From Lunularia cruciata (Eukaryota; Streptophyta; Marchantiopsida; Lunulariales; Lunulariaceae), in contig OX419761.1 of assembly GCA_948567375.1 (NCBI GenBank), forward strand, positions 11,632,243-11,696,242: 64,000 nt of DNA, read 5' to 3'. Below, piece by piece: positions 3,686 to 48,011 of this stretch; position 1 is the stretch's first letter, and each line of letters begins with the position of its first letter. The translations under genes were made by a program, and so were the position numbers. Under the pieces are notes generated by a model. That model was not told the origin of the DNA, did not search any database, and saw only the letters and a list, made by a program, of their open reading frames with translations.

Positions 3686-6600
3686 TCAAAATAAAAATGG
3701 CCCATTGAGTACGTATGGAAAGTTTAGATGTATACCGTGCAATCTCTTAACGAAGAGAGCGAACTCATCCAAATTGCTGTCTTCCATCAGCGTGGGGTTG
3801 AGTCTTAAATAGGTGAAAGCTTCCAAGTGATGACCGTCTGGGTCCTTCAAAGGTTTGGCGTTCTCGAGGATTTTGTTGTAGCCATCACGATCATAGCACG
3901 GGAGTGCGTTCTCACTTGCAACCGCAATATTGCTATCCCAAGCTGAGTTTAAAACCTGCCATACAAGACCTTCAGGATCCGCCATTGCTTCTGGGTAGCC
4001 TTTTTCCTGTGCGAGAGTTCGCAACTCCACACAGGTAAAGTTTAACGCGGCATTGTGTTTTGCTAGCATCTGAGCAATTGGGACATACCCATCACGATTT
4101 GAGGGATTGTAGAAACCTGCAGCAAGCTCAGCAGCATGACTAGCTGTCTTGTACCACCAATGAATACCAGATACCTGGAGAAGCAACATGGATGTTAAGG
4201 ATGTACTCAATGAACAGAACTAAACACCGTACTATCTCACGTCATCTTCTCCTTGATTGCAGGTTATTAGTTGGAACAGCCGCTAAAGCTTTCTCCCTAT
4301 TACTGCTCACATTCACCGGAACAACAAGAAATGACCATGATGCCGATGATCTTATGGTCAGGTGAGAACTCTTGGACAGGATAAGAATGCTTACTTTTGC
4401 AGCAATTTTGTAACCTTCGAAGGCAAGATTAGCAAGGGTCAACACGTTGTCTCCATGTTCGATGAGCAGTTGTGAATACCATTTCAAAAAGAATCGCCCG
4501 TAATAACTGTCATAATCACCACCATCCCTGTAAAATCCTGTGTCCTGCGGCATTGCGTTGTACTCCCCAGCATTATCAGGAGCTCTTCCCCAATGGGCGT
4601 GTCCACGAAGGATGGCTGCTTTCGTTAGGCTCTTTTGCATATACTTGTCGTAGCACTGACAGACAGATAGGAGAGAGTCAGTCACTGAAAGTTGGCGTAC
4701 AGAATTAGACATACATGCAGTAAAACTAGATCAGTTGTTGGATGCAGCGTACATACACTTGTCAAGACAGAGAAAGATCATTAAACTTCTCAAACCGTTA
4801 GGCCAACAAAGAGCTATTTTGCTCAAGGTTAAAGCTTCGTACTTGGAATTCACCAATGCCAGGATATTTCCAGCCATGTCTTTCAGGATAAGAAGGATAT
4901 CGCAACTCTCCACATGCGCCGAGACCAATTTCAATTTCCGTAATTGTGCCGTCCTCAAAAAATTCGTCCAACTGTGAGCGAAAACTCCTCATAAAATCGT
5001 AATAGACCTGCATATGGATAAGCAGTAAGAAGAGAGACGACGAAACTTGGCCAGAGAAGAGATAAGTCGTCATTTTGAACTGATTGCGTGCTATACATGT
5101 ATAAATTCAAGGATACAGGTCTTATCTGCTTGGCGTGAACCCTTACCTCGAGTCCCGTGCGGCCGGCAAGCACTCGCTCTTTGTCAATGCCCCATGAAAG
5201 ACATTCAGGGTTCCGAACACCGCTGCGATCAGTGAAGAAGATTTCAGGATTCTTCTCTCCTATCTCCAAAACCCAAGAAGGGATCGCAATGTTTGTGTCA
5301 TCCCCAACATTCCCACCACATTGATGGAATGACATGACGACCTGCAGCTTCAGACCCGCTTCACGAATGATGTTGAAAAGTTGCCTGTAACCATCCCAGT
5401 TGTATTGTTGGGGGGCTTTTCCTTCGACCAAGCCCCACCAACAGTCAACCATGACTCCATCCACATTCACAGACTTCAGTGCTCTCAAGTCGTACTTCAG
5501 ATACTCAGGATCATTGACTTCATTGTTCTCATTAATCGTGTTCAACTGCAATGTCATAGACCCGAGTCACTACTTGTATACAATTCAAACTCTACCTTCG
5601 CTAAAGCTTCACAGTATCAGAGGATTGACTTAACCAAGACATATGCCTAGCATCAGAATGACAGCAGTTAATAAAACTGCACAATCCTGTAGCCTAGTAC
5701 GGTATGAAACGTCCTTACAGGAAGCATGACATAGATCGGAATGTAAGTTGTTCCAGCAAAATTTCGTTCGAAGTCCTCCTGTACCTACAGGACAAAACAA
5801 TTCAACTGTTAATGAATATATCGTATGCAAGGCAAAGGCCACGAGAGCTATGCACCCTGAACTCGTGTGCATCTGTGCACAGGAATCAAGAGATCCAACA
5901 AAGAAATCAGGGTTTAGGCAAATCCATAGATATCACAATCCAAATACCGAGAAGGGAGTTGTAGAGAAACTGGCGACCTGTAAGATGAATGCAATTTTGA
6001 AGACTTCAAGAAGCTAAAAATGTAACACGAAATTACTCTCCTAATGAGGTGATAAGCTGTATCACATGTGGCGACCTGTAAGATGAATGCAATTTTGAAG
6101 ACTTTAAGAAGCTAAAAATGTAAGACGAAATTACTCTCCTAATGAGGTGATAAGCTGTATCACATGTGAATGTAAGCGAGCCTTGGCATGACGACCAGAT
6201 TCGCAGACAACACAATGCAGGGTCCGGGTGAAAAGAACATGGTCTGCAGACCATGTTCTTTAAAAAATTAATAGATAGGCTTTTCCCGTGTGGAGTATAA
6301 CCTCAAACGTTTTGCGACGTCCTTCTTTCTTCACCCGTTTGGCAGGATGCCCGATGGTTTGAGCAGATTTTATTGCCATCCTTTCCTGAACTTTGACTCT
6401 TCCTTCTGGGTCTGCTTTCTCACACTCGAAAGCGATATGTTTCTCCATCGTTCCAAGTCGACTAACCATGTCTACCCCACAAGATTTGCAGCAAACATTG
6501 AATCGGCGACTCTTGTCAGTGCGCTCACCAGACACAATGAAGTGCTGCCAAACCAAAGACCTAGGTCTACCTCCGCGACGCGATTTCCTCTCTTGGCCAC

Positions 6601-11861: not shown

Positions 11862-11979
11862 ACCAGCTAGAACACCAAAGGCTCTAAGTCAATTTGAGTT
11901 ATTTCAATCAGCTCTTTGTTACCAGCTAGAACACCAAAGGCTCTAAGTCAATTTGAGTTATTTCAATCAGCTCTTTGTT
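11862..11979. repeat. 59-bp tandem duplication
   Basis: Two adjacent copies of a 59-base unit beginning accagctagaacaccaaagg look identical. The array directly abuts the extra LTR start at 11980 that borders element A. An imperfect inverted repeat (around tagtgttgatggttgaacac) lies just to the left. Confidence 0.88.
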
Positions 11980-12083
11980 GTGCGTATGTATATATCGCTA
12001 CACAACATACATTGTTGTCAATATCATACACTATAGAAGCACAACTCACACATAAATCATACATAGATCCTAAAGTGCCACAA
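11980..12083 (-). repeat. Extra partial LTR start next to element A
   Basis: About 104 bases strongly similar to 12526-12628, which is the beginning of element A's 3' LTR read on the minus strand. The order is LTR start, full LTR, then a second LTR start. This suggests that two copies once lay in tandem and shared an LTR, or a local duplication. Confidence 0.6.
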
Positions 12084-12628
12084 TAATCAAATTGTTTACC
12101 ATTCTCAACTCAATTCAAATCAATACTTGATCTGTCACTCTATAAATTGCCAACAACTCTGCATTGATTACAATGAAGCCACACCCACTCTAGCTAAGAG
12201 AATCCATGTGATGCTTGCCGGCCTCTGTCCACCATAGCCAGGAACTCGAAGGCTCAACATTAGGGAAGTGAGCTCTCTGGAGCTGCACTTTGAAAGTATA
12301 CCCCCTGGACTCGAGCTAGATCTAAACCCTAACGGTCCCGCTGACGGCACACTCGGCGATGCAAAGTGATGGTGGGCCCCACCTTGAAGTCAGTACCCCA
12401 AACACAAAATCTGACTGTCGGAAAGTAGTCTTTGAGAAACTGCTAAAATAACTCTAACTACTATTGCTGGAACTCTAGTGTCCGAGCAATCTAGATGCGA
12501 CACTACAAATGGCATGACAGTTGGCGTGCGTATATACATTGCTACACAACATACATTGTTACATAACATCATACACTATAGAAGCACAACTCACACATAA
12601 GTCATACATAGACTCTAAAGTGCCACAA
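12084..12628 (-). repeat. 3' LTR of element A
   Basis: On the minus strand it starts TGTGGCAC just after a purine run (GGGGGGCGA) that fits a polypurine tract. Its body at 12,084-12,519 matches 26,147-26,598 over about 440 bases at roughly 85% by eye. The outer end is set by the repeated start at 12,083. Confidence 0.7.
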
Positions 12629-13299
12629 TCGCCCCCCTAGCTGGCGGTTAGGTCCCTCTAACTCCAGATAGCCATCTACTCTAAATATATGGTATACCCT
12701 ATAATGAGCAAAGATCAGGAGTCCCGGTGCTATAGAGCCCCATTGTTAATTGCCTATCTGCAATCTATACCATATAAAGAATGAACTAGCTATAGGTCAA
12801 GTACATCTAGGACATAACCACTTTCCTTGAGGAACCACCACGAGGGGAGGAGTCATACATGCCATATGCCATCCTCTTGAACAACTATCATCCTCTCAAA
12901 CAACTATCACACGCTAACATAGTAGTAGCCTCACCAGAAGAGCCACATAACATACACCTCAAGCCTGCACGTACAAGTGCCAAGCTTGGGTCCATAGTAC
13001 CATCAATGTTTGGGAGGTAGCATGGTGCACAATTGCGCACATGATCCTTCTAAACAACACCATCACGTCCTTTTAACACAAGGACTCCAGATGGAAAAAC
13101 CTCACACACTCTCAAGGTAGTGGAGCATGTTGAAACATCAAGTGTGGTTGGTGATGTCTGTTGTAGATATACATAGTCTCATAGATGAAATCGATAGATC
13201 GAGGATCTATAACCTCCTCCTCAAATGGTAGCATAGCATAAAGTATCTCTATGCTGAGCAATTGCCAAGTTCTCAAAGGCCATCAACATCACTCTATGA

Positions 13300-14900
13300 A
13301 AGATCTATGCCCGTTGAGAACATGTGCTCATCCATACATCTAGGTCATCCAAGTCAAATTCTATAGTAGCATCTCGACAAATGGCTATAGGTAAATCTGG
13401 ATCTTGTCCATAGAGTAGGAAGTAAGGAGAGGAGGATGCTAAGGAGGCTTGCCGGCTGAATCGATAGCCCATGGCCAACCAAGGTAACTTGAGATCCCAA
13501 TCTCCCAAGTGGCCTCTCTGCAAACCATACGTTTGCAATCCTCTCTTCACCGTCTGAACTACTCTCTCTAGTAAGCCATTTGCCTCAAGGTGATCTCGGG
13601 AGGTAATATGATGATCAATCAAAGACTTGTCACACAAGACCTGAAACTCCCCCAAGAACTCTATACCCTGATCAGTCAAAACCTCAGCTGGTGCACCAAA
13701 ATGACTAAGAACTCAATCCAGGAACGAGTAAGTTGTCCCTTCACTAGACTTGTTAGGAAGTGCCACCAACTCAATCCACTTGGAGAAGTGCTCCACCATC
13801 ACCAAAACATAACGATGATGTCTCACAATCAGCGATAAAGGTCCAATGGTGTCCAAACTCCAACGGTAACCCAATCCCATGATAGGTAATGGGTGTAACT
13901 GTGGCATAAGAGCATTGAATGATGCTCTAACTTGGTCAAAAACCACACATCTAGCAACAAACTGATGTACCTTGGTCTGCATACCACGCCACCAATAATG
14001 ACTCTGGAGTAAGCTATATGCACGCTTGACTCCAAAATGTTCTAGCTCTTCATGAGCATGACCAACCAACTGTGGTCTCTAAGATGGAAGTGGTACTACT
14101 TGCACTCTACCATCATCCCATACACACAAAGGGTGTCTGCACTCCAATCTGAATTGTTTGGCTCGCTGAAGGATACAGTCTCTCTCCTTGGCCCCAACTG
14201 TGCCACCCACAACACCAGTGCAAAGATAGTCCATCACTAAGACATCATCATGAATGTCTCATTGAACTATACCAATATCTTCACGTTTTGGATCTGTGAC
14301 CTCAATAACTCCTCCTGTATGCGCTAAGAGAGATACCACCAAAGCCTCAGAAAATATACATAGAAAGGCAGATGCATGCCAACTTGGCACCATCTCCTCA
14401 TCTGTCTCACCATGCCAACGTGCTTCGGTCTGATCTTGCTGGCTGGGACATGGGTTTCTACTCAACCCATCTGCATCACGGTTCACCACTCTAGGTCTAT
14501 GAACAATTGTGAAATCATACTCTTGTAAAATCAGAGCACATCGTGGAAGCTTCATTGAAAGCTTGTCGGACTTCATCAACCACTTCAGTGGTTGATGATT
14601 AGTGATGAGAGTGAAGGGGTTACAAAATAGGTAACATCGGAATTGTGCTATTACCCAAATTGCTGCCAATCACTCTCGCTCATGTGAACTATAATTTGCC
14701 TCCGCTGAATTGTTGGAGTGACTAGCATAGGCCACCACAAACTCCTTCCCCTCATCATCATACGGGTGAGCACCGCTCCAATTTGTATGAACCTGAAATG
14801 GTTGTCCTTTGATCTATCTCCTCAAAATAGGAGCAGATGTCAGCCTCTCCTTGAGCTCTACAAAAGCTCTCTCCTGCTCTTCTCTCTAACACCACTCTTG
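13300..14900 (-). pseudogene. Element A RNase H and integrase regions
   Basis: RNase H-type text such as FTLITNHQPLKWLM and ADGLSRNPCP lies near 14,669-14,450. The zinc-binding and core parts of an integrase (HEELEHFGVKRAYSLLQSHY near 14,050; LDTIGPLSLI near 13,850; DQGIEFLGEFQVLCDKSLID near 13,670) follow. This is the 3' half of a Ty3/gypsy pol and a fossil part of element A. Confidence 0.75.
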
Positions 14901-15149
14901 TGTAAACTTGGTCAGCTTCATCAAGGCCTTAGGCAATGACACTAAATCCTCTAACATAGCGGCAATAGAAGTTTGCCAACCCAAGGAATACTTGCACTTT
15001 GCTCACATCCGTAGGCCAAGGAATATGTGCAATAGCCTCTACCTTGGTGTACTAAACACCAAGTCCGCCGGGGTAGATAGTGTGACCCAAATACTCAACC
15101 TACTCATGGAAGAACCTACACTTCCCAAGATGTAATTTGAGTCCATGCG

Positions 15150-15850
15150 ATCTCAACCTCTCAAACACATCCAACAACTATCTCTCATGCTCCTCCACAG
15201 GTATTGCTATAGACCAAAATGTCATCAATATAGCACTGAGGAAAATCCAACCCAGCTAGGATCCTATCCATGACCCATTAGAACTCAACAAGAGTGTTCT
15301 TCAACCCAAACGGTAAGAACCTCCATTGATATAACACATCCTTATCGTGAGGATCAATAGCCTGGAATGTTGTTTTGGACTTATCCTCCTCCTTGATTGG
15401 CAATTGATGATATCCCGCTTGAAGATCCAAAGTATTGAAGACCTTTGCATGCCCAATCGCATCAAAAATCTCCTCTAGTGTAGACATGGCATACAGATCA
15501 GCCCTAGTTTGTCGGTTGATAGGAGGGTAATCTCCACACATCTACCTATTTGTGTAGTTGCCATGCATATCTTTCTTGGCTGGCATCACTATTGTTGATG
15601 CATACTCTCCATGTGAAATCTCCACCAAACCAGCCTCAAAAAGGTCACTACTCCGGCTCTAAATCAATGTCCTCTCCATATCACTATATCAATAAGGACG
15701 TCAGAAAACTGGTGTATTGCTAGTCAGCTCAATCCATATACTAGGTCCCTTCAGAGCACCCAAATCTTTCATAATGAAGGCAAAACAAATCGCGTGGCTC
15801 CTCAAGAACCTCAAAACCCTCCGTCTTTCCTCTCTAGTAAGCTTGGGTCC
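15150..15850 (-). pseudogene. Element A reverse transcriptase region
   Basis: Recognisable gypsy reverse-transcriptase text: a block with VFNTLDLQAGYHQLPIKEED near 15,430, then WRFLPFGLKNTL near 15,300, then YIDDILV near 15,225. It lies directly after the methyltransferase region in reading order. Fossil part of element A. Confidence 0.8.
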
Positions 15851-16199
15851 AAGATCTGGCTCCCAAGTATCCTTTGCAACTGTAGTAGGAGTGGAAGACG
15901 TATTGGCTGGCTGCTACACTGGGCCCTTGGGAGCAATAATGCCATGCTCCCAACCTCTGTGTGAAAAACTCTCTCCACTTTGGCTGCAAGCTCCACACGT
16001 CCTCTAGCTGCATCTCAAGTGGACCAAGGGTGTAATCCAAGTAGCCCACGCTCACCCGGATGGACTCCAAGTAGACCACTCTCCCTAGTAGCTACTAGCT
16101 GTGTCCCAAGAATACCATGTCCACTTGGTCCATCGCCCTAGCATAAGCCTAAATCGTCTCGACAGGCACAAGGTTCACAAGTGTCCGAGTGGTGATGCC

Positions 16200-17170
16200 T
16201 ACCAAGCGCATCCTACGCTACTCTGCCAAGCCAAGGCTCACAATCCAGGTCAAATAGTTTAGGTCCATAACGTGACCTAACACTTGACACCTGGATGCCT
16301 CTACCACTACTGGATCAGCGGTAATTCTGGTACAAAAACCCATCGCCCGCTCTCTCTCATCAGCATTGAGCTCCACCAATTGCTATAACTATGAGTCCCA
16401 AACTAGTCTAGATCCTCCCTCTCGAAAAGCATGAGAGCATGGGAAACTCATGAGTGTGGGAAATGCGGCTCTAGGCTGTCCAACTAGGTTCACCATTGCC
16501 ATAGATGACTTATCAACCACTACCATTGTCTGAGACTGACACTCAACATCCAAGATATCATCAACAAGGATGTGGTCAAGTCATTGAATCCAATCATAAG
16601 CACGCCGTAGAACCTCTCTGGGTAAGAGGTTTGTCCACCAAAGACAAAGATGATGAGCCCATGATCTCACTTTGGCTGCATCTAACAATACAGTAGGTCC
16701 CATCCAAGAATGGACCTGATGTGTACTCGCCACCACTTTGGTGCAAGAATCACCCATCAAGGGAATGTTCTCCAAAAGGTAAGCTGGAGAAATGGACTGA
16801 TGAATCTGGAGATGTCATAGTATTCGTAATATGTCCCAAAACACACCAGAATAAGACCCAAACCTCTACAAGCACATGTATATCCCTAACATGGCCATCT
16901 AGAAATCACCAAGTGAATAGGCCCATGTCTCTCTAGATCATGCGCCCCCAATAAGGAAATGTCTGTTGGTAGGGCCTTTTGGTAACTTCTGACTGCTGAT
17001 ATCAATAATAACTCCGGATATTGATAGGCCAAGTGTGCTACATGATGTAGAGAGACTTGCCTAGCAGTCTCATCTCTCTCTACATACAAGTACCTCTGTA
17101 CTCATATACCCGCCTGTAATACCACAACTAGTCCGGTGCTAATCCTACTGAACAACTCCAATAGACATAT
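16200..17170 (-). pseudogene. C5-cytosine DNA methyltransferase domain inside element A
   Basis: About 320 codons with the C5-methyltransferase motifs in order. Motif I, the AdoMet site, reads LELFSRISTGLVVVLQAGI near 17,160-17,108. Next is an acidic aromatic segment YVERDETAR near 17,085. Motif IV, GPIHLVISRWPC, has its Pro-Cys near 16,890. Motif VI is ENIPLMGD near 16,770. Motif VIII, DAAKVRSWAHHLCLWWTNL, lies near 16,690-16,635. Motifs IX-X follow: VGQPRAAFPTLMSFP near 16,470, ELNADERERAMGF near 16,370 and VLGHVMDL near 16,270. The TGL of motif I and the W-x-N-L-L-P end of VIII resemble the DNMT3 type most; subfamily is an inference. It sits between protease and RT, so it was probably made as part of the pol polyprotein. 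Fossil. Confidence 0.85.
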
Positions 17171-17619
17171 CCCTTCTATTGGATACTGCCAAGAAATGAG
17201 TGCGTTATCTAGAGGTGTCAAAGCAATTGACTCTTGAGGCTCATCCTCACACTCATCTCCTGATGGTACAAAGGCTCCACTCCAAGCCTACTGCACCAAC
17301 CAATCTGCATGTTGCTGCAATGGCTCCTCTGAACTCCACAATAAAACATCCAAGGTGGATGGAATAATCCCACTTGTACTCCAAATCCGAGTGATCCTCT
17401 TTGGTACTAGAGTATCCTCTACATGGGTGTTCCCCTCCAACAAGTCACCAAGCCAAGTAACTGCATCACTAAAAGCTAAAATTGATGCTGCCATGGTCCC
17501 GAACTACAATGAGCCAAGACTGCCACTATTGAAGCGTATTGGTAGGCGACATACACGTCCCTCACTAGACTGCCAACCGGGTCTATAGGAGGCTATCTCC
17601 TCCCAATAGTCAATGCTGA

Positions 17620-18440
17620 AACTCATGGGGTATAACACTGCTCCCCCAACTAGCACATCATATGACTCAACTATCGTCGCAAGTGCCTGAGCTCTCACCA
17701 CCGAGCTATCAATAGGATGACCAAGTTGAACCTAGACAAGAAGCTCCCCACGTATAATGTATTGTGTTAAACCACCACCTAGAGATGTCTGGATCTGAAA
17801 TGGACACCTCTCCACATTGGTCGACCGTAACTCCAGACCGACCATTGCCACCTTCCCCAACATAAGGGGCTGCGCACCAGAGTCTAACAAGACTCTCTGT
17901 GGTGTATAGATCTTCCCTGAAGGTCCCACCAAATAGAAAATCCCCCTCTGATTATCCAATAGGATAACACAAGGTGTGAACCGTGCTCTCTCAAAGGCCG
18001 GTCTAGCTGGCAACTCCTCCAGTGTAGTCGCTATTGCTTGCCATAAACAATTAGTGGTTGAACGGATCCCATACTCCTCAACCAAGTCAGCTCCACTACC
18101 AACCACCTCTACTCTAGTAGTAGGAATTGCATCATCCCTACTTTCACAAAGCATAGTAGCCAACCAGAACATTGGGGTTGGGTCAACTCCCAATGTAAAT
18201 ATATCATTGGCTGAAAACAAAGGATGCCGTATAATCAGCTGAGCCGCCCCCAACATCATGCTAGACTTAGACTGTTTAGTAGCAGGTGGTTGACTAGTAG
18301 GTTGTCCATCATGCAATCCATCACCACCTACCACACCTGCACTAGGACGTTTAGGAACCATGGATATCATTTGCAATGCCTCAAATAGCGTGAAAGACTA
18401 AGGAAGTCTGACGTGTTGTCCAACCGCTCCTCTCTATGGG
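17620..18440 (-). pseudogene. Element A gag end and aspartic protease region
   Basis: A gag-tail region leads into a retropepsin: RVLLDSGAQPLMLGK near 17,890 holds the Asp-Ser-Gly of a retroviral-type aspartic protease, followed by a beta-rich stretch and DVLVGGAVL near 17,660. Around 17,180-17,600 lies a linker between protease and methyltransferase that is not recognised. Fossil part of element A. Confidence 0.7.
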
Positions 18441-18444
18441 TCCA

Positions 18445-19178
18445 TGTAATACCAAGAGCTAGCCATATGATCTTGATGTGAAATTTGGTTTGGTAACATC
18501 TAGAATGATGTTATACATGATGGTCAAAATAGATCAGATAGAAGTATCACCAAAAGAGTGCTTCTATTAATAGAGCAAAAATGGAAATAGTCTTGAGAAC
18601 CTTAGAACCAATATTTAGACATACAATTTAAAGGTGAGAATTTGTTTGGTAACATCTGGAAGAATATTACACATGATGGACTAAACAGATCAGGAAGAGG
18701 TATCACCAAAAGAGGACTTCTACTAATAGAGTAGGAACCAAAATATGCTTGGAAACTTTGAAGGTAATTTTGGAGGGCTAAACGGATGACTTAGACCTCA
18801 AAAATATGCAGATTTCCCTCCCCAATAGAGGTAGGGTTGGCCTTCTCTCCCCCTTGGTTTGTCTCATTGAGAGCTTTCCAACGGTACCTTACGTGATTTT
18901 GAGATTCCTATAGGAAGATTCCCTAAAAGATTCTCTCCAATCAAAGCTTGTTCGACCAACCAGATAGGACCTAGACCGACATGTCACCCATCCAACTAAG
19001 TAATCCAAGGGTGGAGCTTCCTGACATGTCACCTATCTATGTGCCTAATCCTATGGTGGAGCTTCCTTGGAAGAGATCCTCTTTGTCTATATAATAAAGA
19101 GAAGGTGCTCCTTTTGGACACCAAATGTTGAGTGTATAATCTGTGTTTTCTCTCTTCTCTTGTCCACGGAGTATTACA
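18445..19178 (+). repeat. 5' LTR of element B
   Basis: 734 bases from TGTAATACC to GTATTACA, directly followed by the primer-binding site. Two imperfect copies of a roughly 170-base unit (sharing gtaacatc and gtatcaccaaaagag) lie in its first half. A TATA-like ctatataataaag is near 19,088. A related LTR stands alone at 36,255-36,979. Confidence 0.85.
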
Positions 19179-22100
19179 ATGGTATCAGAGCGAGTGTCTT
19201 AGTCCAAGAGAGTGGATCACCCCTCTTGGAAGAGCACAAACTACTAAAACTAAGTAATTTGAGGTGGAGAACATAGAGTAATTGCTAGACTTAGGAAAGA
19301 CTTTAGAGAGCAGCCGAGATGGATGCACCAAGAGGACAATTTCCCGCACCTAGCTTTCCATTCCCAAATCCATTCCACATCAAGGTTATGTACATCCAAC
19401 GTGAGCAAATGAGGGTATTGCTAGTTTATCACTTTGGCATAGAATTCATGGACAGGGTGATGAACTCACCAAACCTGATGATTCTACCTGTAGTGATATA
19501 TAACAGAGAGTGGGATTTGACAATCTACATTCTATTATGATAATATGGATGTGAATGTCTTAAATCTTCTTCTTTCAACATTCACGTAGAAATCCGTTAT
19601 ATAGTGAGACCAAAAGTGATGTTTAGAGATTTTGTGGTTAGCAAGGAGTATTATCAATGAGTGACAGCTTTTGAGGTCCCAATGGTAGTTTTGATAGTTT
19701 GTACGCCTTCTAGAGTGATCATATTGACTATGTATTGAAGTAGACATTAGCAATTGAGTGTTGCAAGACCCATGGATCCGCAATTGCAAGAGTTGGTGCA
19801 AAGAATGCAAGAGATGTTGAATGAATTTTGAGAGATTAAGATGACCATGGAAACATTACAAAGTCAAAAGAAAATCTTCAGGAACGATCAAGCCATGCAA
19901 GGAGAAGAGCCGTCTCAAAACCCAGTACTTGCGACTAAAGTACTTGAAGAGGCACCTATGCCTACGAACCCTATCAACAATGAAGCCACATTGCTACTCC
20001 GGATGAAGAAGACTTGCAACATTGAGCCTTACAAGGAGTAGCGTATGATGGGAGAAGTGGAAAATTGGATCTCAAGAATGATGGGAGAAGTGGAAAATTG
20101 GATCTCAAGAATGAATCAAAATTTCTGATTGTTCTCAACAGAGATCACGGAGTATGCTACAGGTGTGTTTGCATGTGGGTACTTGACCAATAAAGCCCTC
20201 AGATGGTATGATGCTTGGGAACGATCCATGTTGGCAAAGAGAAGGGAGGTTACGTGGACAGCAATGCAAGAAGGATTGTTGAAGAATTTCCAATTGGTGG
20301 ATTCTGTGCAGATGGCTCAAACCTGACTATGGGGATTGAGACAGAAGAATAGCGTACAAGAGTATATGAAAGTATTTCTGGATCTACAAGTTGCAATAAC
20401 CTACATGAGTCCAGCAGAGGCTCTTGACAATTTCAAACAAGGGTTAAAGGAGCGGATTTGCCAAGAAGTCATGGTGCAAAATCCGTGCACAGTGTTTGAA
20501 GCTATTGCTTGTGCACAAAGAATAGCAAGAGCATTGGGTGAAGGTGAAGGAGTAGTTCCACCTCAAAATTATTGGGCAGAAATGCCACACATGGGTGGAC
20601 AAGTACCAATGGAATTGGGCAACCTTTGATTTCAAGATCGAGGAGCACGACTACTTCAAGGGGAGCATGGACGGGTAGAAGAACAAAGAGATGGAGTCCC
20701 ACGAGGAGAACGAACTCAAGGAGAACAACACCGTTGTTACAATTGTGGCCGTATTGGGCACATATCTACCAACTATTGCACTTGTCTCCTTAGAGGCTCT
20801 CGGCCTTCGTACAGACGATCTTTGAACAACTTGGAGAGGCGCATTGAAGAGGAGGAGGTGGAAATCACTTTGGAAAACAAAGATCACCAGTAAATGTACC
20901 TCGTGGCCTTATTGGCTCAATAAGGAAGAAGAGAAGCAAGGGAAGGAAGAAGACTAATGCACAAAGATCCTAAAAGGCAACCTCATAATTGATTGTCGTG
21001 AATGGAGTCCTAGAAGGCAATCAAGTGAGAGTATTAATTGATTTGGGAGCAATAGAAATTTTTTTATCTTGCTCTATTGCAATAAGATTGGGAATGGATC
21101 TAGAGAGAGATAGAAGTGAATAAGTAGAGTTGCCTAATGGGCAAATAGAGAGGATTGAATCATTACCTAGACAGGTAACACTCTCTATAGGAGAATATCA
21201 AGAAGCAATTGAGTGGCGAGTGATACAATTAGCTCGTTATGATGCAATCTTAGGTATGCCATGGATGAATCATTACAACCCTATGGTAGATTGGAGGAAG
21301 AAAGTAGTGAGAACCCACAAATGGTCAATCATTGGGATTAAAGAAAAATCACCCATGCAGGATTTGCCTCTATATGTCATATGGACGGCAATTGTCTGTA
21401 AGACCGATAGTGTTTCATGAGTCTAATAAGAGAAATCCAAAGTGCACAACTAGATGGACAAGTTCTTGAGAAATTGAAGATGTGGTGGATGAATTTCAAG
21501 ATGTCTTTCTGGATGATCTACCCTCAGGATTACCACCATAAAGGAGAGTAGATCATAAAATTGAGACACTCCCGAGGAAGACACCTCTTTGTAAGGCCTC
21601 ATATTGCCTATCACCTCATGAGTTAGAGGAGTGTAAGACTCAAATTGAGAAGATGTTGTAGAAGAGGTTCATCCAACCTAGCGTATCACCATATGGGGCT
21701 CTTGTCTTGTTTGAGAAGAAGAAGGATGGTACAATGTGCATGTGCATTGACTATTGAGATCTCAATTAACAAAAAATGAAGAACAAATACCCCTTACCTT
21801 GCATGGAGCGAGATACTTCACCAAATTGGACTTACAGAGTGGTTACAATCAAATCCAAATTGTAGAGGAAGATGTGTACAAAATTACCTTTCAAACCAAA
21901 TATGGCCACTTTGAGTATCTTGTGATGCCTTTTGGCCTCACCAATGCACCTGCCACTTTTCATGAGTCTAATGAATGACATATTTCATCTATACTTGGAT
22001 AAGTCTGTTATCGTCTTCTTGGATGATATCTTGGTATATAGTAGCACGATGACGGAACACAAACAACATCTACAAGATGTCCTCTAGATTCTAAGACAGA

Positions 22101-24115
22101 ATCAATTGTATGCCAAAATCTCAAAGTGCGAGTTTAGCAAGTTTGAAGTAGACTACTTGGGGCATAGAGTAAGTGCAGAGGGAATTCAAGTATTGATAAA
22201 TAAAATAGAGGTCATTCAAAAATGGCATGCACCAAAAGATCAAACTCAACTCAAGAGCTTCTTGAGGTTAACAATATTCTATTGTTGATTTGTCAAAGAC
22301 TTCTCCAAGGTTGCACAACCTTTAATGGCACTACTTGGCAATGTGAAGAAATGGACATGAGGAACCGCACAAGATTTAGCCTTTCAAGAATTGAAAGCCA
22401 CCTTGCTACATGCACCAATCTTGAAGTGGTATGACCAAAAACGACCAATCAAGTTGGCTATAGATGCATCAAGCATAGCAATAGGAGCAATCCTACAACA
22501 AGAGTGGCATGATAGATGGCATCCAATTACATATTTCTCTTGAAAGTTATTACTGGCAGAGCGCAACTACCACACCACAGAACAAGAAGAGCTGGCCATT
22601 GTTTTGGCAACCAAGCATTGGAAGCACTATTTGGGCAAGAACACATTTGTAGTAGAGACAGACCACAAACCTCTAGTCTACCTCAAGACGCAAAAGGATC
22701 TATTTCATCGCCAAATTCTATGGGCAGAGTGGTGACAACGCTTCAACATGAAAATCACCTACGTGGAAGGTAAGAAACAACTTGCAGATGCATTCACCCG
22801 CATGCCAATGGCAAACAACTTGGTGGTAGAGGTTAAGATTAACCCTAAATTCTGGCCCAAGATTCAGGCTGCTACAAAAACTGATCCGCAAATTGTAGAA
22901 GAGCAATCATCCAAAGGCATCACCAACACCCAAGGACTCACCTTTCATGATGGTAGATTATGGATCCCAAATGTCCCAGAATTATGCACCACCATTCTAG
23001 CGGAATGTCATGATTTGGCCATTGCAGGTCATGTTGGAGTAGACAAGACCTTGGATGCAATCCAACACCATTACTATTGGCCCAAGATGAACAATGACGT
23101 GATGGACTACGTGCGCAGCAGCCTACTTTTTCAACAAAACAAAGCTTCCAATCAAGCTCTTGCAGGGCTCTTTCAACCTCTCTCCACGCCTACCCAACGT
23201 TGGGAACAAGTGAGTTTGGATCTCATCTGTGAATTACCCAAGACCACCTTAGGGTTTGACTCCATTGGGGTCTTTGTGAACTAGCTTACGTACATTTATG
23301 TACGGCCTACCACCAAGGATGTGACCGCTCCACAACTAGCGCAATTATACTTAGATGCAATCTTCTCTCACCATGGCTTGTCTAGAGTACTTAGCACCAA
23401 TAGAGGCACTCAATTCGCCAATTTGTTTTAGCGAACACTCTTTGGTTTCTTCAAAACCAAGTTGGCCATGTCTACAACTTATCACACACAAACAGATGGC
23501 CAAATAGAGCGGGCTAATTGCACGATTGAAGACATGTTATAGGGCTTCACCTTAGAAGAGCAAGAAAGGTGGGACACACTACTCCCATTGGTGGAATTTG
23601 CTTATAACAATTCAATGAATGCATCCACCTAGATCACTCCGTTCTTCCTCATGTATGGTGAGTATTACTTCACACCTTCTAGCTTGATGAAGATCCGTCC
23701 AGTGGCTACCAAGGTCAATGCAGTCAACACGTTTGTTTCTAGAATCCAACACGGTGTGGAGAGAGCCAAGCACAGATTACAGATTGCACAAAATCAACAA
23801 AAGTAGTATACTAATGCACACCATAGGCACATGGAGTTCAATGTTGGGGACCAAGTGTGGCTATCGATAACCAACCTCACATTAGTTGGACCTCATAAGC
23901 TCAAACCTTGTTTTATTGGGCCTTTCTCGATTCTTTGTTGCATCGGCGCTATGGCCTATCACCTTGAGCTACCATCACACATGAAGATCCATCTAGTGTT
24001 CCATGTTTCCCTACTACGTAGATATGCTCCCCAATCAGGCCAAGGTCATTCCACACAAGACAATTAACCTTGTCCAACACTCATTGATGGCATAGAGGAA
24101 TATGAACTCTTGCAA
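18445..24115 (+). mobile_element. Element B: Ty3/gypsy retrotransposon nested in element A
   Basis: Plus-strand element inserted into element A in opposite orientation. Parts: 5' LTR 18,445-19,178; tRNA-iMet primer site TGGTATCAGAGC at 19,180-19,191; gag about 19,320-20,640; zinc knuckle CYNCGRIGHISTNYC near 20,735-20,780; protease near 21,000-21,400; reverse transcriptase about 21,540-22,290 ([12 protein letters not shown] and [13 protein letters not shown]); RNase H about 22,430-22,800; integrase about 22,930-23,750; chromodomain-type C-terminus about 23,831-24,110 (IDGIEEYEL). Only one LTR was recognised. The copy is broken, with roughly a dozen breaks. It is a chromovirus-like member of Ty3/gypsy and younger than A. 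Confidence 0.83.
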
Positions 24116-26146
24116 GCTCCTTTGCTTGTCAATCCACACTCCTTGATAATTCTACCTCAAACATTGGAAGAACTCCACCATGGGGTTAAACCCCAATACC
24201 ACACCACCTCCTATAGTAGTACCTCCACTTGTAGTAGCACTATCTCCAGCTAGTGCACCTCCACTAGCTCCACCAACACTACTCTAGCTAGAACTTGTAA
24301 GTACATCCAATCTACTCTAGGCGACCAAACCTAAAGTGATAGAGATATAGTTTGGAGACCAATACTATCTCCATAACTTGATCTCCTCCAATGCTCTCTT
24401 GAACTCATGGAAGTCATCCATCGGCGGACCCTCCAGATGTTAAACCCCTTCCATGCCATGAAAGGTGTAACCAAAGTTGGGTTACGCATCTGCTGTAGAT
24501 CACACTAACTATTAAACTCTTGGATAAAGTCATCCAACTCAATGGTACCCACTATACTAGAGTAACGCCTAGGGCTTTTGGAGGCCACATAAATCTTGTC
24601 CATGTCCCACAACAATGGTGCGGACATACCAAGTGGACTCTCAACTGAATTAACTCTTGTGTCAAACTCCAACTCAGAGTCAATCTCCTCCCTCATTGGG
24701 ACCTAAGATACAAGCTAATATCAAGTACCACTCTGAGTAAACCCACTGCATACTGCAGAGCTATCTCCTGTGAAATCTCCAAAGAACTCCGTCGTGACAA
24801 AGTAACTACAACCACAACCGCAAGAACAAACCAAAACCACAAATTGCAACTGCAAGTCGCAACCGCAAGTACCCCACTAAGTGCTAACACCATCAAGTGC
24901 CAACACCAACTAAGCACCACCCACTAATGTAACTCTGACCGAGATAACTACACTAGGGGAAAGAGCAACCTGTAACTTGCCACACAACACGCACTCTCAC
25001 GGTCTCCAGGTCATCACTTCTTGCCTCACCGTAGAGAAACAAAGATAGTTTGATTGGTCATCACTCTAGCCTCACTATTAAGAGCACACAAGAGCACTAA
25101 CGCTCAAAAGTTAGGGCACCTCACACAAACGTGGTGCACAAACAAGAAGCAAAGAATGGAGGAGGTCCAATCACAAGAAATCTAAATGAAAACCCTCCAT
25201 CTCATAAAACGACATGTGACTGAGTCTGTCATCATTTGGCATTTGACATAAGAGAAGTTTGCATCTAAGTCCTAAGCTACCAGGATCACCAAAAATGGGA
25301 TCAAACTGCCTCTCTTAACCAAAGCTACAAGTGTATAGATAACAATGGCACAGTCACTAGGACAACAAGTGAGGTGGACCAGTTGGCTAGGCACCAGTCT
25401 AAGAACAAGAGATCTAGGTGTCAAACCCTATGGCGCACAATCTAGTAGGAAAGGCAGATTTTGCCAACCAATGACCAAGATCTACTCTAAACTAGCTAGC
25501 CTCACGCCAACAAGATGGCTTGCTAGCCCTTCTGGCCCTTTTAGGCCTTCATAGCCCATAGCTCTATGCCTTGAAGCCTCTAAATGCCAAATGAGGTCTT
25601 TCCTCTTGCCACTTTGAACCTCCTCCAAAATTTGGCAAAAATCCTCCAAACTTGCAAAAGTCTTCCAAACTAGCGAAACTTCTCCAAATCTGGCCAAACA
25701 GCAAAATTCCTACAAATCTGGCCAAAATCTGACGTAAAATCTAACATAAACATAAAGATAGCTGACCGCCAAATCCCCCACTAACTCTTCACTTGAGCCA
25801 AATTGAAAACATGGGTTTCTCTAAATCACAAATTCACAAGAACAGCTTCTCAACTCCACCTTCAATTTTACTTTTTGAGCCCAACTCACAACAAATTGGT
25901 CATGCCTTCACCTCTTGAGCTCAAAATCACAACCACTGCTCAAAATTTGCTCCTTTTGTGCTCAAAGATTGGCCAACGCTTCCACACACCGTCTGCCTTA
26001 TTGCCAAATCTCTATCAAGCAACAAGCTTCTGCACACTAGGGAAAATCTGAACTTGAATCAAACTACCAACGATCCACCGAGCTTGGAAATACCACCAAC
26101 ACTCAAAGTTTCTGCACCCGATTTCCATCTCACTTCACTTCTTTGA
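24110..26146 (-). pseudogene. Element A gag and leader region
   Basis: Between element B and the 5' LTR lies gag-like text (WDMDKIYVASKSPRRY and IELDDFIQEFN near 24,600-24,510) and, nearer the LTR, a leader of more than 1 kb with no clear coding signal. A short ORF near 25,697-25,482 is not recognised. A clear tRNA primer site next to the LTR was not found. Confidence 0.5.
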
Positions 26147-26598
26147 TGTAATCAGATTGTTTACCACTCTCAACTCAACTCAACTCAGATCAGTTCTTGA
26201 TCTGTCACTCTATAAACTACCAACAACTGGACACTGATTACAATCAAGCCACACCCATTCTAGCTAAGAGAATTCAGGTGATGCTTGCCGGCCTCTGTCC
26301 ACCATAGCCAGGAACTCGAAGGCTCAACATCAAAGAAGTGAGCTCTCTAGAGCTGCAGTTTGAAAGTATACCCCTCGGACTCAAGCTAGGTCTGAACCCT
26401 AACGGTCTTGCTGACGGCACACTCGACGGTGCAAATAGTGCAAAGTGACGGTGAGCCCCACCATGAAGTCAATACCCCAAACACAAAATCTGACCATCGG
26501 AAAGTAGTCTTTGAGAAATTGCTGAAATAACTCTAACTACTATCACTAGAATTCCAATGTACGAGCAATCTAGATACGACACTACAAATGGCGTTACA
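26147..26598 (-). repeat. 5' LTR of element A
   Basis: It reads TGTAACGCC to GATTACA on the minus strand and matches 12,084-12,519. The recognisable copy is about 450 bases, shorter than the 545-base copy at the other end. No target-site duplication was found for element A. Confidence 0.75.
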
Positions 26599-30950: not shown

Positions 30951-33900
30951 TATTCCCCCGCCGCTAGTTGGTGACGACCTCGTTGCCAGTGAAGCTTTGA
31001 ATTCCTGGATGGCCGTTTGTGCTTTCTAGAGGTGAGAAAGAGGTTCCTAGGTGGCATCATGAAGGGGTTACCCTTTCCAAAGGACCTTGTACTCTGTATG
31101 TTGGCTACGGCCTCGTTAAATATGGCAACATGCAAGGATACAATCAACTTTGTACTCCTCATGATCATTGATAGGGATAGGAAGAGGGAGAGGTTGGACT
31201 CAAGAGGAAAAGGAAGAGGGGTTAGGAACAAAGGGTTTCAACTTGGAAACATGAAAGACAAGATGGATACGCATGTGACAAGGCAAGGCAAGTCGATAAG
31301 CAACACAAGAGACAATTTGGGTGATATCAAAGGGTCCTTTCTAATAAGGGGTAAGTTTATGAACTTGGGTATCAAGTGGGAGAGGGAGGTTACTGGAGGA
31401 TAACATGACTTTATCACCAACTTCAAAGGTGAGATCACGACGATGATGACCCACATATTTTTTTTTGGTGATTTTGAGCAACAAGGAGATGAGACTTGGC
31501 TTGTTGGAGAGATTGGGATATAGTGGTCAAGAATGTGGAAGTATGAGGAACTTGAAGTGGAGGGGGAGCAAGAAGAGAATCTGGAACAAGCGGATCTTGG
31601 CCAAAATTGAGAAAGAAAGGAAAGAATTCGGTGCTTGCTTGTTTGGAATTGTTATAGGCAAATTCTGCAACGGCAAGACATTCATCCCAATTGGTATGGT
31701 GAACATTGACAAAGGCATGCAACATATCCTCCAATGTACGATTTTCATGTTTAGTTTTTCCATCAATTTGAGGATGATAGGCTGTGGACAAAGGAAGCTT
31801 GGTGCCGAGTATTTGAAAGAGTGCTTGCCAAAACTTCCCAGTAAATTGAGGATCATGGTCAGAGACGAGTACGCATGGCATCCCATGATGCTTGAAGACA
31901 TTGTTGAAGTAGATTTGCACTAAGGTTGGAGCATCCACGGTATCACAGGTTGGTGCCAAGTGGATTTGCTTACTAAGCTTATCCACAAACACCACAATGG
32001 CAGTGTGTCCTTGTTTTGTCTTTGGCAAGGATGTGATGAGATCCAAGCTCACATGCTCCCAACGAGCTGATGGAATGGCAAGCGGTTGAAGGAGTCCACT
32101 CGGCTTCTAGTTGCTGGCCTTGTTACGTTGGTAGCTCTCACACGAGTGGACAAATTCTCAAACATCTTGTGTCATGTTGTGGCACCACCATTTACATTGG
32201 AGGGTTCATAAGGTCTTGTCCACACCCATGTGACCAGCAATGGGTAAATCATGGGCTTCTTGAAGATGCACAAGTCAAAGATCACCTTTGGCTAGAACAT
32301 AGATCCGGTCCGCATGGAATAGAAGGCCTTCCTTGAAGAAGAAGGTGTTGTACTTCTTGTCACCTATTGTTAGACGACCATGTACCATTTGGAAGAAGGG
32401 ATCTTGTTGTAGAGCTAACCAAAACTCGTTATGGATCTTGGGGTCAATTGACATCATCGTAATTGTTGCCGTGATGAGAGGAAGGGACTTCAAATCAGGT
32501 CGTCGTGATTGAGCATTAGGGATGACATTGAACCGACTTGGTTTGTACTCAAGTTTGATATCAATTAATTGGAGTTGCTCTTCCCATTGATGATGTCGAC
32601 TCTTCATGTGCTCCAGGTGTAAGGTCTGCAACAATGGCTTGTGATCAGTTTGCATGATCACTTGTTTCTCCAAGAGATAATGCCTCCATACCTTGGTGGC
32701 ATATACCATTGCAAATTGTTCTTGATCTAGAGCAGAGTAATTTCTTTCAGCTATATTTAGTCGGTGAGACACAAAGGCAATGAGATGTAGTCCATCTAGG
32801 AATTCCTATTGCAACATAGCTCCAATTGCAAAGTTAGAAGCATCAAAATCAACCACACAAGGTAGTTGAGGATCATATGGTTGAAGAATAGGTCTTGAAG
32901 ACACCATATGTTTCAACTTCTGGAATGCTTCTTCATGCTTGGTGTTCCATTAGAAGCTCAAGTTCTTTCCCAAGAGGTCAATCAATGGTGCAGTCACATG
33001 AGCATAATAGTGGATGAACCACCTGTAAAAACTAGCCAATCCATTGAATCCCTGTACTTTTGTAGCATCCTTTGGGGTAGGCCAATCAATAATGGCCTTG
33101 ATCTTCTCTTCTTCCATCTTGATCTCCTATGAGGAGATTGTATGACCCAAGAAGGTAACCTCCTTTTGCCAAAAGGCACACTTCAACTTCTTGTAGTAAA
33201 ATTTCCATGGTCATAGTCATCTTGGGATTTCTTGCACATGATTCACGTGTTCTACCTCTATCTTGCTATAGATTAAGATATCATCCAAGAATACCACCAC
33301 TGACCAATCCAATAGTCCATCCAACACCCGATGCATATGATCCATGAAGACTACTAGAGCATTAGTAAGTCCGAAAGGTAAAACTCTCCACTCAAAATGC
33401 CCATACCTTGTGCAAAAGGTAGTCTTTTGCACATCCTCTCTATCAATCAGAATTTGCCAATAGCCGCTGTGAAGATCCAACTTGGAAAAGAAACGTGCTC
33501 CACTTAGTTGATCAAGAAAGTCATTGATTCGAGGCAAGGGATATGCATTCTTCACGGTTTGCTTATTGAGCCCATGATAATCAATACAGAAACAAAGTCC
33601 TCCATCCTTCTTTGGAACAAATAGTATCGGTGCTCCCCAAGGAGAGATACTATGTGATACAAAGTCCTTCTCCAACAACTCTATAAGTGTTGTTCGCAAC
33701 TCCTCCAACTCCTTTGGTGAGAGCCGATAGATTGGTCTACTCATTGGAGTACTTCTTGGCAATAACTCGATCTTGAAGGGCATACCTTGATTGGAGGGTA
33801 ATCCATTTGGTAGATCATTCGGAAACAAATCCGTAAACTCCTTAACTATCCGATCAACCATTACTTGATGAGGCTCTTGGTCCTTCACAAATTGGTCTTG

Positions 33901-35753
33901 TGCAATCGGCTTGATCCACACCGCAAATATAGACTTATCTTCCTCTCAAGCTTGCTCTATGGCTGTTTTACTAACAAACTTCCCTTCTAGGGATTCATCT
34001 CTCTTCCAAGCCTGCTCCATGGTTGCCTTCTTGGTAAACTTCCCATCTTGGGACTCCACTTTTTTCAAGGTTTGCTCTATGGCTACCTTCTCGACAAACT
34101 TCCTATCTTGGGACTGACTATTCTTAGGTGTCTTACTCAAAGGTTCCAGACAACCTAATCGGAAATTCCTACCTTGGTGTTGTACTTGAATTTGGTGTTG
34201 GGTCCAATCATATTGAACCTTATGTCGTTCAAGCCAAGGTAGACCCAAAATGATATCATAGTGTAGAGGTGCTACTACAAACCTCATACACTCCAAATAC
34301 TCCTTCCCAATCTTGAAGGTAAAAGGATGCGAGGTGCGGAATGTAGAACCCTTTCTACCACCCGCCATCATCAAACTACTTCCAATCACTAGCTTGATAG
34401 GAATACCCAATTCCTTTGCTACTTGCATAGACATGCAATTCTTTGAACTTCCAAAATCAACCAAAATCCTACAACCCCGATTAGATATCATACCTTGCAA
34501 GTGAAGCAACCTTGCATAGGCCGAGCCTTCAATCCCATTGGAACTAATCAAGCTCCCAATAGGTGGCTCAAATTCTCCTATTGGGATTCTTTGTTTCCTT
34601 GATCATTCCGCTCTACAACCTCCACTTGGGCAACTTGTCGAGGTCGTCCATTCTTGAGTGGACATTTAGCAATGCGATGCCCCAACTGGCGACAATAAAA
34701 ACATCCACCATTTGTCGTAATTTCTCTCTATCTGCCGTGCCAAGTGGTCTTTGTTGGATTGCATCAATCTCCATTGGTGCTTGCTCCTCCACTTGTGTGT
34801 AGTGTATTGGTAGGCTTTGTGGAGGTCGAGGTCGAGACCAAGTTGTTGCCACCAAGGAATTAAAACGTTTGGCCAACCGCATGGCTTCCTCCAAGTGTTG
34901 TGGCTCTTGCATGGTTACCTCTAATTTGGTTCTTGCCTTCAATCCCCTCACAAATCAATTCAGAGCTTCACCTTCCAATATATCTGGAATTTGCATGATG
35001 ATGTTTTGGAACTATGTGATGTAACTTCTTATAGAGCCAATCTGTTTCAACTTTGCCAACTTATCCCATGCAGCTCGTGTGGCATTTATAGCTTGGAACC
35101 GACTAATTATTGCACTTTTGAATTTTGTCTATGTCAAGATTGGTGTAAAAATTTGTCGTTTAGCTTGCTCCATTTGGAATCTCCACCATAGCTTTGCTAC
35201 TCCATCCAATTGGCTAGAAGCCAAGAGAATCTATTTTTGTTCGTCTTGTAGATTGGTAACTTCAAAATAACATTCACAATCAAACACAAAATTCTCCACT
35301 ACACTTGGGAGATTCTTGTCTTCAAATACCTTGGGTTTAGAGAATATGATCCAATCTTGTCCTTCTCGGATTGGTACTCTCTCCACCTGCTCTTGTCGTC
35401 AAAAATCTTGTTCCTCCAACGATCGAGCAAGGTGCTCGGTTTGTTGTTGCATAGCAAGGATAACATCAGGTATTGCTGCCATGGTTGCTCCTCTATCACA
35501 CCACTCCCAATCTATCTTATTTATTAACACATAGAAACAACACGTCCACCATTCTCCATAAGTTACAATCGGAAGCACCAAGGGTTCCTCAGATATGGTG
35601 ATCATATGTAGAAAATCTTGTCCAAAGTGCGAGGTGATGAATTGTGTGAAACAATGCTTGGGTAGTATTTGGATGCAAAAATCCTAATGGTTTGGTGGAA
35701 GTGGATTTGATGGTCCATAAATTCCATCCATCCCATTCCTACTTTGATACCAA

Positions 35754-47854: not shown

Positions 47855-48011
47855 ATTGACCAACTCCAAATTCTGCGATCGCTCACCGTGCGCGTGCTGC
47901 CTTTACTGGTTCTTCCAGGAACAGACTGAAAACCAAATCGTGCTGGGATTTCTCCCTCTAACTTCTCTGGTTCTGCTTGCCGAGTTGCATACCCTTCTTC
48001 CAAGATGACTT

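Follow-up and report, generated by a model that had tools for sequence, protein, structure and literature searches.

The subject here is a Ty3/gypsy retrotransposon that carries its own C5-cytosine DNA methyltransferase of the DNMT3 family, and that lies as an old, dead member of a high-copy family in a stretch of the genome of the liverwort Lunularia cruciata (contig OX419761.1 of assembly GCA_948567375.1, positions 11,632,243 to 11,696,242; the window, below, is this whole stretch of 64,000 nucleotides). Better-preserved relatives in the same genome suggest a life cycle that is very probably right as a whole: a DNMT-bearing gypsy family with a leaky UAG stop codon, self-primed reverse transcription, integration of a permuted circle and tethering by a PHD finger. 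That is, most ribosomes would halt at the UAG, making the methyltransferase an extension of Gag, present in Gag-like amounts and packaged; a minority would read through to yield reverse transcriptase (RT) and integrase; the RNA would prime itself with sequence of its own long terminal repeat (LTR); RT would make cDNA with LTRs of the form B-gc-A (A and B being the repeats described below), the ends of which would join to give a 2-LTR circle; integrase would cut the palindrome GACAG/CTGTC inside one LTR of the circle; finally, the inserted element would be circularly permuted and flanked by a target duplication of 4 bp. Once packaged, the methyltransferase would most likely mark the new double-stranded cDNA, the circle or the insertion, and the PHD finger would probably tether integration to chromatin via the histone H3 tail.

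A DNMT3-type methyltransferase inside a gypsy element

A first-pass annotation, made from the letters of the window alone, had placed a C5-methyltransferase inside a Ty3/gypsy element, and there it is: between protease and RT, in the same orientation, and alignable to an intact genomic copy (Table 1). The motifs then named on the pol strand, I, IV, VI and VIII onward, are recognisable though damaged: FSRISTGL (I), RWPC*G (IV, the asterisk being a stop), LLENIP (VI) and SWAHHLC (VIII), then ERAMGF and GHVMDLN. The damage touches motifs I, IV and VIII, the frame changes after motif IV, and seven in-frame stops confirm that this copy is a fossil.

The identity of the domain is secure because intact members of the family match significantly, not on account of the broken pieces in the window. 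The latter, translated with X at stops, gave no Pfam match up to E 10; against the PDB, the first piece was closest to DNMT3A/B/C (E 0.014) and the second had no match up to E 10. In an intact copy (L006), by contrast, the Pfam profile PF00145 scores 36.3 bits, its cut-off being 22, with E 5.8e-9, and the PDB search matches DNMT3A at E 4e-12. With a profile built from 28 related proteins, 55 PDB rows pass E<=1e-3. DNMT3A/B/C fill the first 29 places (best 4.5e-21), followed by two entries named just 'DNA methyltransferase' (3.7e-12 and 1.2e-10), DRM2 (about 5e-10), HaeIII (5e-8), DNMT2 and HhaI; none of the 55 is named DNMT1 or CMT. The suggestion of a DNMT3-like origin, rather than one from CMT or MET1, was thus well founded. 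A significant profile match, an unrearranged motif order and a catalytic PC are all as in the DNMT3 family, and the AlphaFold2 model made for a relative with 75% identity reaches a mean pLDDT of 84.7 and a pTM of 0.86. We infer that the domain would act as a methyltransferase; its target is somewhat more likely to be DNA than anything else.

The surrounding element has protease, RT, RNase H and DDE integrase in the order typical of Ty3/gypsy. The profile matches for its first parts fall below their cut-offs (Retrotrans_gag, E 0.02, in copy L009; RVP_2 for the protease, E 0.14, in copy L008, where the LLDSGAQ motif is visible). A tyrosine recombinase, the mark of DIRS elements, had no match in the element's domain search. 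At the C-terminus of the integrase, a chromodomain had no match up to E 1 and a PHD finger is found instead; there is an even chance that it reads histone H3. The association of DNMT3 with a PHD finger is reminiscent of animals, in which DNMT3 is paired with ADD.

The family in the Lunularia cruciata genome

The domain might have been confined to one copy, brought by a separate insertion unlinked to pol. That alternative fails: the domain is present in the 120 best-scoring genome copies, and an exact pattern across the joint of methyltransferase and RT matches at 979 places. Other exact short patterns occur 1532 times (A/B joints, a count that may take in solo remnants) and 637 times (B-NN-A joints), with no match for any of the reversed controls; the 979 stop-region matches indicate a copy number of roughly a thousand or more.

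A genome search with PF00145 scored 123 of 2161 candidates, all of them matching; the best eight, when fetched, were four retrotransposon copies (L005-L008) and four pieces of host genes, which we read as DNMT3 (L001, L004), DRM-like (L002) and one other (L003). The two host DNMT3-like genes contain introns. A protein search turned up 13,636 candidates, of which the best 120 were scored, a choice that does not reveal the share of intact copies: 119 match all 335 residues of the methyltransferase and one matches 333; identity is 95-97%, the query itself aside; the domain is free of stops in 74 and holds at least one in 46; seven have an open frame of exactly 1428 codons. In 16 copies, again best-scoring ones, ENV is preserved throughout, and PCQ, AHRLR, ERAMGF and GQAMDLN are preserved in 15 each.

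Pooled pN/pS in 12 copies, a biased sample picked for long first open reading frames (ORF1), is 0.45 for the methyltransferase, 0.30 for RT, 0.32 for RNase H, 0.55 for integrase, 0.29 for the PHD finger, 0.34 for protease, 0.34 for gag (11 copies) and 1.1 for the linker before the methyltransferase (on few changes); these values are compatible with constraint and are not a strong test of it. Transitions between the two A repeats of a copy, A1 and A2, summed over 20 copies, number 95 at 40 CG sites, 78 at 54 CHG sites and 52 at 132 CHH sites, beside 31 transversions. The excess of CG and CHG transitions suggests that the copies are methylated, as host pathways would do anyway; such decay was set aside as a sign of self-methylation, as it does not discriminate.

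A probably leaky stop after the methyltransferase

In all 17 copies read, a TAG closes the methyltransferase block, and the next six letters are CAGCCA or CAGCTA; the RT block opens in the same frame right after the stop in nine of 12 (it is broken in the other three). The stop and its context thus read UAG CARYYA, in frame and with an open block on either side, and they correspond to the signal for type I readthrough in tobamoviruses, as given in the part of PMC5382211 consulted. When the genome-wide pattern left two codons free, the 100 places listed out of the 979 (all on one contig, C1) held a stop without exception, 96 TAG and four TAA. Three ORF1 proteins of liverworts end 72-74 residues past the methyltransferase domain, as compared with about 101 in the Lunularia element.

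The family multiplied while carrying this stop and therefore must tolerate it, so that RT and integrase are quite probably produced by readthrough. Since the stop is placed after the methyltransferase, the enzyme would be part of the abundant Gag product, with which it would likely be packaged. Possible gains for the element include protection or masking of its cDNA or circles, or a tolerated chromatin state at the insertion.

Unlike ends, probable self-priming and a proposed circle

The repeats are laid out as A-coding-B-A-B. All nine copies with flanks have B-A-B at the 3' end, and eight have a full A at the 5' end as well. A meets B directly in 46 of 51 3' ends; in 45 of these, B is separated from the following A by two nucleotides (GC in 30, AC in seven, GT in five, others in three), and one was not read. 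The CAGCTG at this B1-NN-A2 joint has gone from GC to AC or GT in 12 of the 15 changed copies, as deamination of methylated CHG would give. A target-site duplication of exactly 4 bp, short as expected of a DDE integrase, is present in 18 of the 22 copies with both ends; four have none.

The element does not have two identical LTRs at its very ends: A stands by itself at the 5' end and B-A-B at the 3' end. The limits of the LTR offer an explanation. In 15 of 21 5' ends, the 14 nt that follow A1 directly are complementary, without a mismatch, to a site inside the element's own A, and in 14 of these 15 copies that site lies 28 nt behind the TATA; 5000 shuffled versions of A gave complements of at most 10 nt. 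From this complementarity, self-priming of the Tf1 kind can be proposed with high confidence. A tRNA-type primer site after A1 was not recognised (no systematic search for one was made), and the self-priming complement took its place. As this site follows A1 directly, the LTR ends where A ends; as a run of G stands directly before B1, the LTR starts at B1. With these limits, the reverse-transcribed LTR would be B-gc-A, and integrated copies, which start at A and end at B, would be circular permutations; an LTR of the form A-B was dropped, the primer site following A1 and the polypurine tract preceding B1. The unlike ends are then explained as a permuted LTR pair that would function as an LTR pair with a shifted cut site.

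An A/B joint is the expected product when a pair of B-gc-A LTRs is joined end to end. Among the 1532 such joints, 1461 have no insert and 71 have one: A in 52, CATCA in ten, CATCAA in three, TA in two, and CAA, CA, C and GA in one each. The 52 A inserts equal B's own first base; GA is the last base of the polypurine tract plus that A; 16 consist of the first bases of the primer-binding site, in some cases followed by B's first A. A single C or A could equally be a point mutation. As a set, the inserts fit leftovers of imprecise primer and tract removal before closure of a circle, and the 2-LTR circle seems rather likely to be the substrate of integration. In retroviruses, 2-LTR circles are regarded as dead ends; if the present reading is true, such circles may here be real integration substrates.

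Relatives in other species, and a probable single acquisition

The first-pass annotation held that this plant carried such a lineage; the family is indeed present, and the claim was too narrow, as the lineage is common to liverworts, Sphagnum and chlorophyte algae. That annotation had also missed the leaky stop, the PHD finger and the arrangement of the repeats. Protein searches gave 238 relatives (120 listed) and 116 long proteins, most of the listed rows being without an organism name. Among the matches listed are the liverworts Calypogeia fissa, Marchantia polymorpha, M. paleacea and Riccia sorocarpa, the mosses Sphagnum troendelagicum, S. tenellum and S. fallax, and the chlorophytes Haematococcus lacustris, Chlamydomonas eustigma and Monoraphidium neglectum. 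Scans of genome contigs and viral contigs with a single protein found no relative. One relative (P0021) is filed under a metagenome-assembled genome of Candidatus Obscuribacterales; it is probably a plant or algal sequence that was binned with bacteria.

Two layouts recur: in layout A, that of bryophytes, the methyltransferase lies between protease and RT; in layout B, it lies between RNase H and integrase. The complete series RT-RNase H-DNMT-integrase-PHD is found in 50 of the 116 long proteins and protease-DNMT in 29; one (P0233) has DNMT-RT-RNase H-integrase-PHD; the remaining 36 have fewer or other combinations, and several of these are spliced gene models. By these counts, the methyltransferase occupies two or three positions and the PHD finger stands constantly behind the integrase. 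In layout A the finger has been seen in the Lunularia genome only, because no listed protein of other bryophytes extended that far. Catalytic motifs persist across the 116: an AHR.R-like motif in 111, EN[VIT] in 93 and W.CQ in 88. The proline of the catalytic PC is often replaced while the cysteine is kept, PCQ being found in 46 as against W.CQ in 88.

A tree of 37 methyltransferase domains places all 25 rows from retrotransposons, of both layouts, on one side of a branch with support 100/100*, apart from this plant's own DNMT3. Joining layout A or layout B to plant DNMT3 (host gene included) is rejected (p-AU 5e-9 each), and a quick larger tree of 57 rows is in agreement. Inside the retrotransposon group, support is 94/83 for layout B and 59/69 for layout A. 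Elsewhere in the tree, the sister of the host gene L001 is a lycophyte (Diphasiastrum) gene, not the Sphagnum one (97/84). An RT-RNase H tree of 27 rows separates both layouts from the four rows that stand for other gypsy elements of this genome (98/96*). The Lunularia element is 34-43% identical to four layout-B proteins in the methyltransferase and 36-44% in RT; against Marchantia, the values are 63-73% for the methyltransferase, 68-85% for RT and 43-60% for protease (some from partial matches). The methyltransferase thus changes about as fast as RT across species, and most likely the lineage gained it once and kept it in bryophytes and green algae.

Alternative explanations

Two alternatives concern how the element works, and both seem unlikely. 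One supposes that a master copy acquired the in-frame TAG by decay, RT and integrase being supplied in trans or from spliced RNA. Several Marchantia and Sphagnum gene models do join the methyltransferase to RT, skipping the stretch where a stop is expected, presumably as predicted introns; this does not sit well with a stop at every one of the places listed, nearly always TAG and in the type I leaky context, nor with ORF1 proteins that end shortly past the domain in other liverworts as here. The other supposes that A-coding-B-A-B is a split direct repeat like that of PAT and DIRS elements, copied in each cycle, with the internal B-A junction as the template that restores the ends and no 2-LTR circle as substrate. 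Copying would also yield the great majority of joints without insert, and the layout matches the DIRS and KnitGypsy-Dnmt3 drawings according to the figure legends of PMC5890265. However, the element has a DDE integrase and 4-bp duplications where a split-repeat element should have a tyrosine recombinase; B1 starts at the polypurine tract and A1 ends at the self-priming site, which defines a B-gc-A LTR; moreover, 16 joints hold primer-site pieces of several lengths and one holds a tract base, and such varied pieces are expected if end joining makes the joint anew.

The history and use of the methyltransferase invite two further alternatives. The DNMT3 genes of bryophyte and algal elements might stem from separate captures, an origin proposed for those of Klebsormidium and Symbiodinium. 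The domain's two positions in the polyprotein (three with P0233) would suit this, and the retrotransposon group has a long branch to other DNMT3, with no chlorophyte host DNMT3 knowingly in the tree, so that model error and missing donors are possible. It is nevertheless quite improbable, given the grouping of all 25 rows, the rejection of either layout with plant DNMT3, and the agreement of the RT and PHD evidence with a single origin. Or a host gene, captured once, might be a passenger without a role, hitch-hiking in a successful master copy. Its pN/pS above that of RT is in line with this, as is the behaviour of the Klebsormidium enzyme in yeast (below). We regard a mere passenger as improbable: its motifs are kept in 15 or 16 of the 16 best-scoring copies and in most of the 116 relatives, its identity between species is on a par with that of RT at two polyprotein positions, and the linker before it, on few changes, has more than twice its pN/pS.

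Several points count against the favoured account, of a family that gained its methyltransferase once, makes RT by readthrough and integrates from a circle. The stop context and the repeat layout come from the DNA of one genome. Of the four copies lacking a target duplication, two have A1/A2 identities of 0.90 and 0.92 and two are young (0.998 and 0.976); the one at 0.998 carries a CATCA joint. The two TA inserts among the 71 are unexplained, and recurring inserts may be inherited in subfamilies rather than record separate events. The counts of motifs and stops, in 16 and 120 copies, rest on best-scoring copies; the methyltransferase's pN/pS (0.45) exceeds that of RT (0.30), in copies picked for long ORF1; and the CG and CHG transitions fit ordinary host methylation, with no trace of the element's own enzyme. 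Layout A as a single group is weakly supported, the RT outgroup is small and incomplete (two of its four rows are nearly identical), and some of the spread among green lineages could be due to horizontal transfer. Finally, the Klebsormidium gypsy methyltransferase produced no methylation in yeast, a result of limited weight because DNMT3B failed there too, according to the parts of PMC5890265 consulted.

The copy in the window and its surroundings

Aligned to an intact genomic copy, the element spans 11976-26598 on the minus strand, in the order A1, self-priming site, gag, nested insertion, protease, methyltransferase, in-frame TAG, RT, RNase H, integrase, PHD finger, B1, A2 and B2 (Table 1). 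In intact copies, A1 contains the TATA and the source of the self-primer. About 926 bp of the element were lost at the site of the nested insertion, whose plus-strand gypsy has an Integrase_H2C2 match at 22736-23281. A1 and A2 are 89.2% identical, below the range of 20 other copies (median 97.8%, range 89.9-99.8%), so this copy is among the older ones; its ends retain no exact target duplication.

Table 1. Parts of the methyltransferase-bearing element in the window
Feature	Positions	Strand	Remarks
5' terminal repeat A1	26149..26598	-	starts TGTAACG; 88% identity to repeat A of intact copy
Self-priming primer-binding site	26135..26148	-	CATCAAAGAAGTGA; one mismatch to other copies; complement inside A
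Gag end of ORF1	24104..24909	-	truncated by nested insertion; 86% identity to ORF1 start of intact copy
Nested insertion	18445..24103	.	5.7 kb; splits the element; contains plus-strand gypsy
Aspartic protease	17486..17995	-	LLDSGAQ; 91% identity to intact copy
DNMT3-type C5-cytosine methyltransferase	16203..17193	-	seven stops; 89.2% nucleotide identity (1001 columns) to intact genomic copy
In-frame TAG	15914..15916	-	then CAGCCA (UAG CARYYA leaky-stop context); separates methyltransferase block from RT
Reverse transcriptase	15013..15913	-	91% identity to intact copy; RVT_1 1.5e-31 there
RNase H	14509..14891	-	alignment to intact copy; RT_RNaseH 1.3e-35 there
DDE integrase	13561..14129	-	Integrase_H2C2 7.8e-19 and rve 4.8e-13 in intact copy
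PHD finger	12800..12974	-	C-terminus of integrase block; by alignment; two other copies pass the PF00628 cut-off (3.2e-10, 6e-11)
Repeat B1	12522..12629	-	ends CGCCA-AC-TGTC; directly after polypurine tract in other copies
Repeat A2	12084..12519	-	alignment to intact copy
Repeat B2, 3' element end	11976..12084	-	...CAACA; alignment to intact copy

Elsewhere in the window, exons of a beta-amylase-like gene lie at 3689-5566 on the minus strand (PF01373, E 6e-25 and 4.6e-41). Further gypsy pieces lie at 31438-33945 and 59222-60055, also on the minus strand (RVT_1 5.5e-21; RT_RNaseH 1e-31), with no methyltransferase among their listed open frames; the former served in the outgroup of the RT tree. 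An open frame of 389 codons at 46736-47902, minus strand, has no Pfam match over the cut-off.

Comparison with known systems

The methyltransferase-bearing gypsy element is known as a kind since 2018, when KnitGypsy-Dnmt3 of the charophyte alga Klebsormidium nitens was described (de Mendoza et al. 2018, PMC5890265). Its coding ORF likewise includes a Dnmt3-type domain, without introns and with the motifs unrearranged, and the figure legends give it the DIRS repeat structure A-coding-B-A-B in a gypsy element, as in Lunularia; in the parts consulted, the paper calls it an independent acquisition and mentions no PHD finger, leaky stop, self-priming or circle origin. No sequence named Klebsormidium is among the protein matches listed, and the comparison is by description. 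Cytosine methyltransferases are also carried by SymbioDIRS-Dnmt3 and SymbioLINE-Dnmt of dinoflagellates, and two SymbioDIRS domains methylated CG in yeast (same source, in part); the former is a DIRS element with a tyrosine recombinase and the latter a LINE, whereas the Lunularia element is a gypsy with a DDE integrase. For the breadth of the lineage, the PHD finger, the leaky stop and permuted integration, we found no earlier description in the literature searched, as far as its accessible parts go: no bryophyte or chlorophyte gypsy with both DNMT and PHD finger turned up in open papers including PMC12344493, PMC11244446, PMC9033089 and PMC2864245, a search of open literature that left subscription papers and preprints outside.

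The 2018 work raised, for two algal lineages, the question why a transposon would carry an enzyme that silences transposons. The lineage described here spans bryophytes and green algae, with many open frames in this genome; as it includes the model liverwort Marchantia polymorpha, the question becomes testable in a genetic model. A circle origin, if true, would also account for the DIRS-like repeats of KnitGypsy-Dnmt3, for which no explanation was found in the parts of PMC5890265 consulted.

The remaining parallels concern single parts of the system. The host DNMT3 of non-flowering plants (Yaari et al. 2019, PMC6453930, in part), which that source finds in no angiosperm, is of the same enzyme family and motif order, with two such genes here; it differs from the element's domain in having introns, in DUF3444 in relatives and in its separate clade in the tree. 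The tobamoviruses use the same UAG and CARYYA (PMC5382211, in part); here the signal stands in a retrotransposon, after a Gag-protease-DNMT block. The Tf1/Tcn1 chromoviruses (Neumann et al. 2019, PMC6317226, in part) are likewise self-primed Ty3/gypsy elements that occur in non-seed plants; the words PHD and methyltransferase are absent from the main text of that survey, as far as seen. Where these chromoviruses have a chromodomain, the Lunularia element has a PHD finger, and it may, on about even terms, represent a gypsy clade of the green lineage that joins a chromatin writer (DNMT3 at Gag amounts) to a reader (PHD) and integrates from a 2-LTR circle at GACAG/CTGTC.
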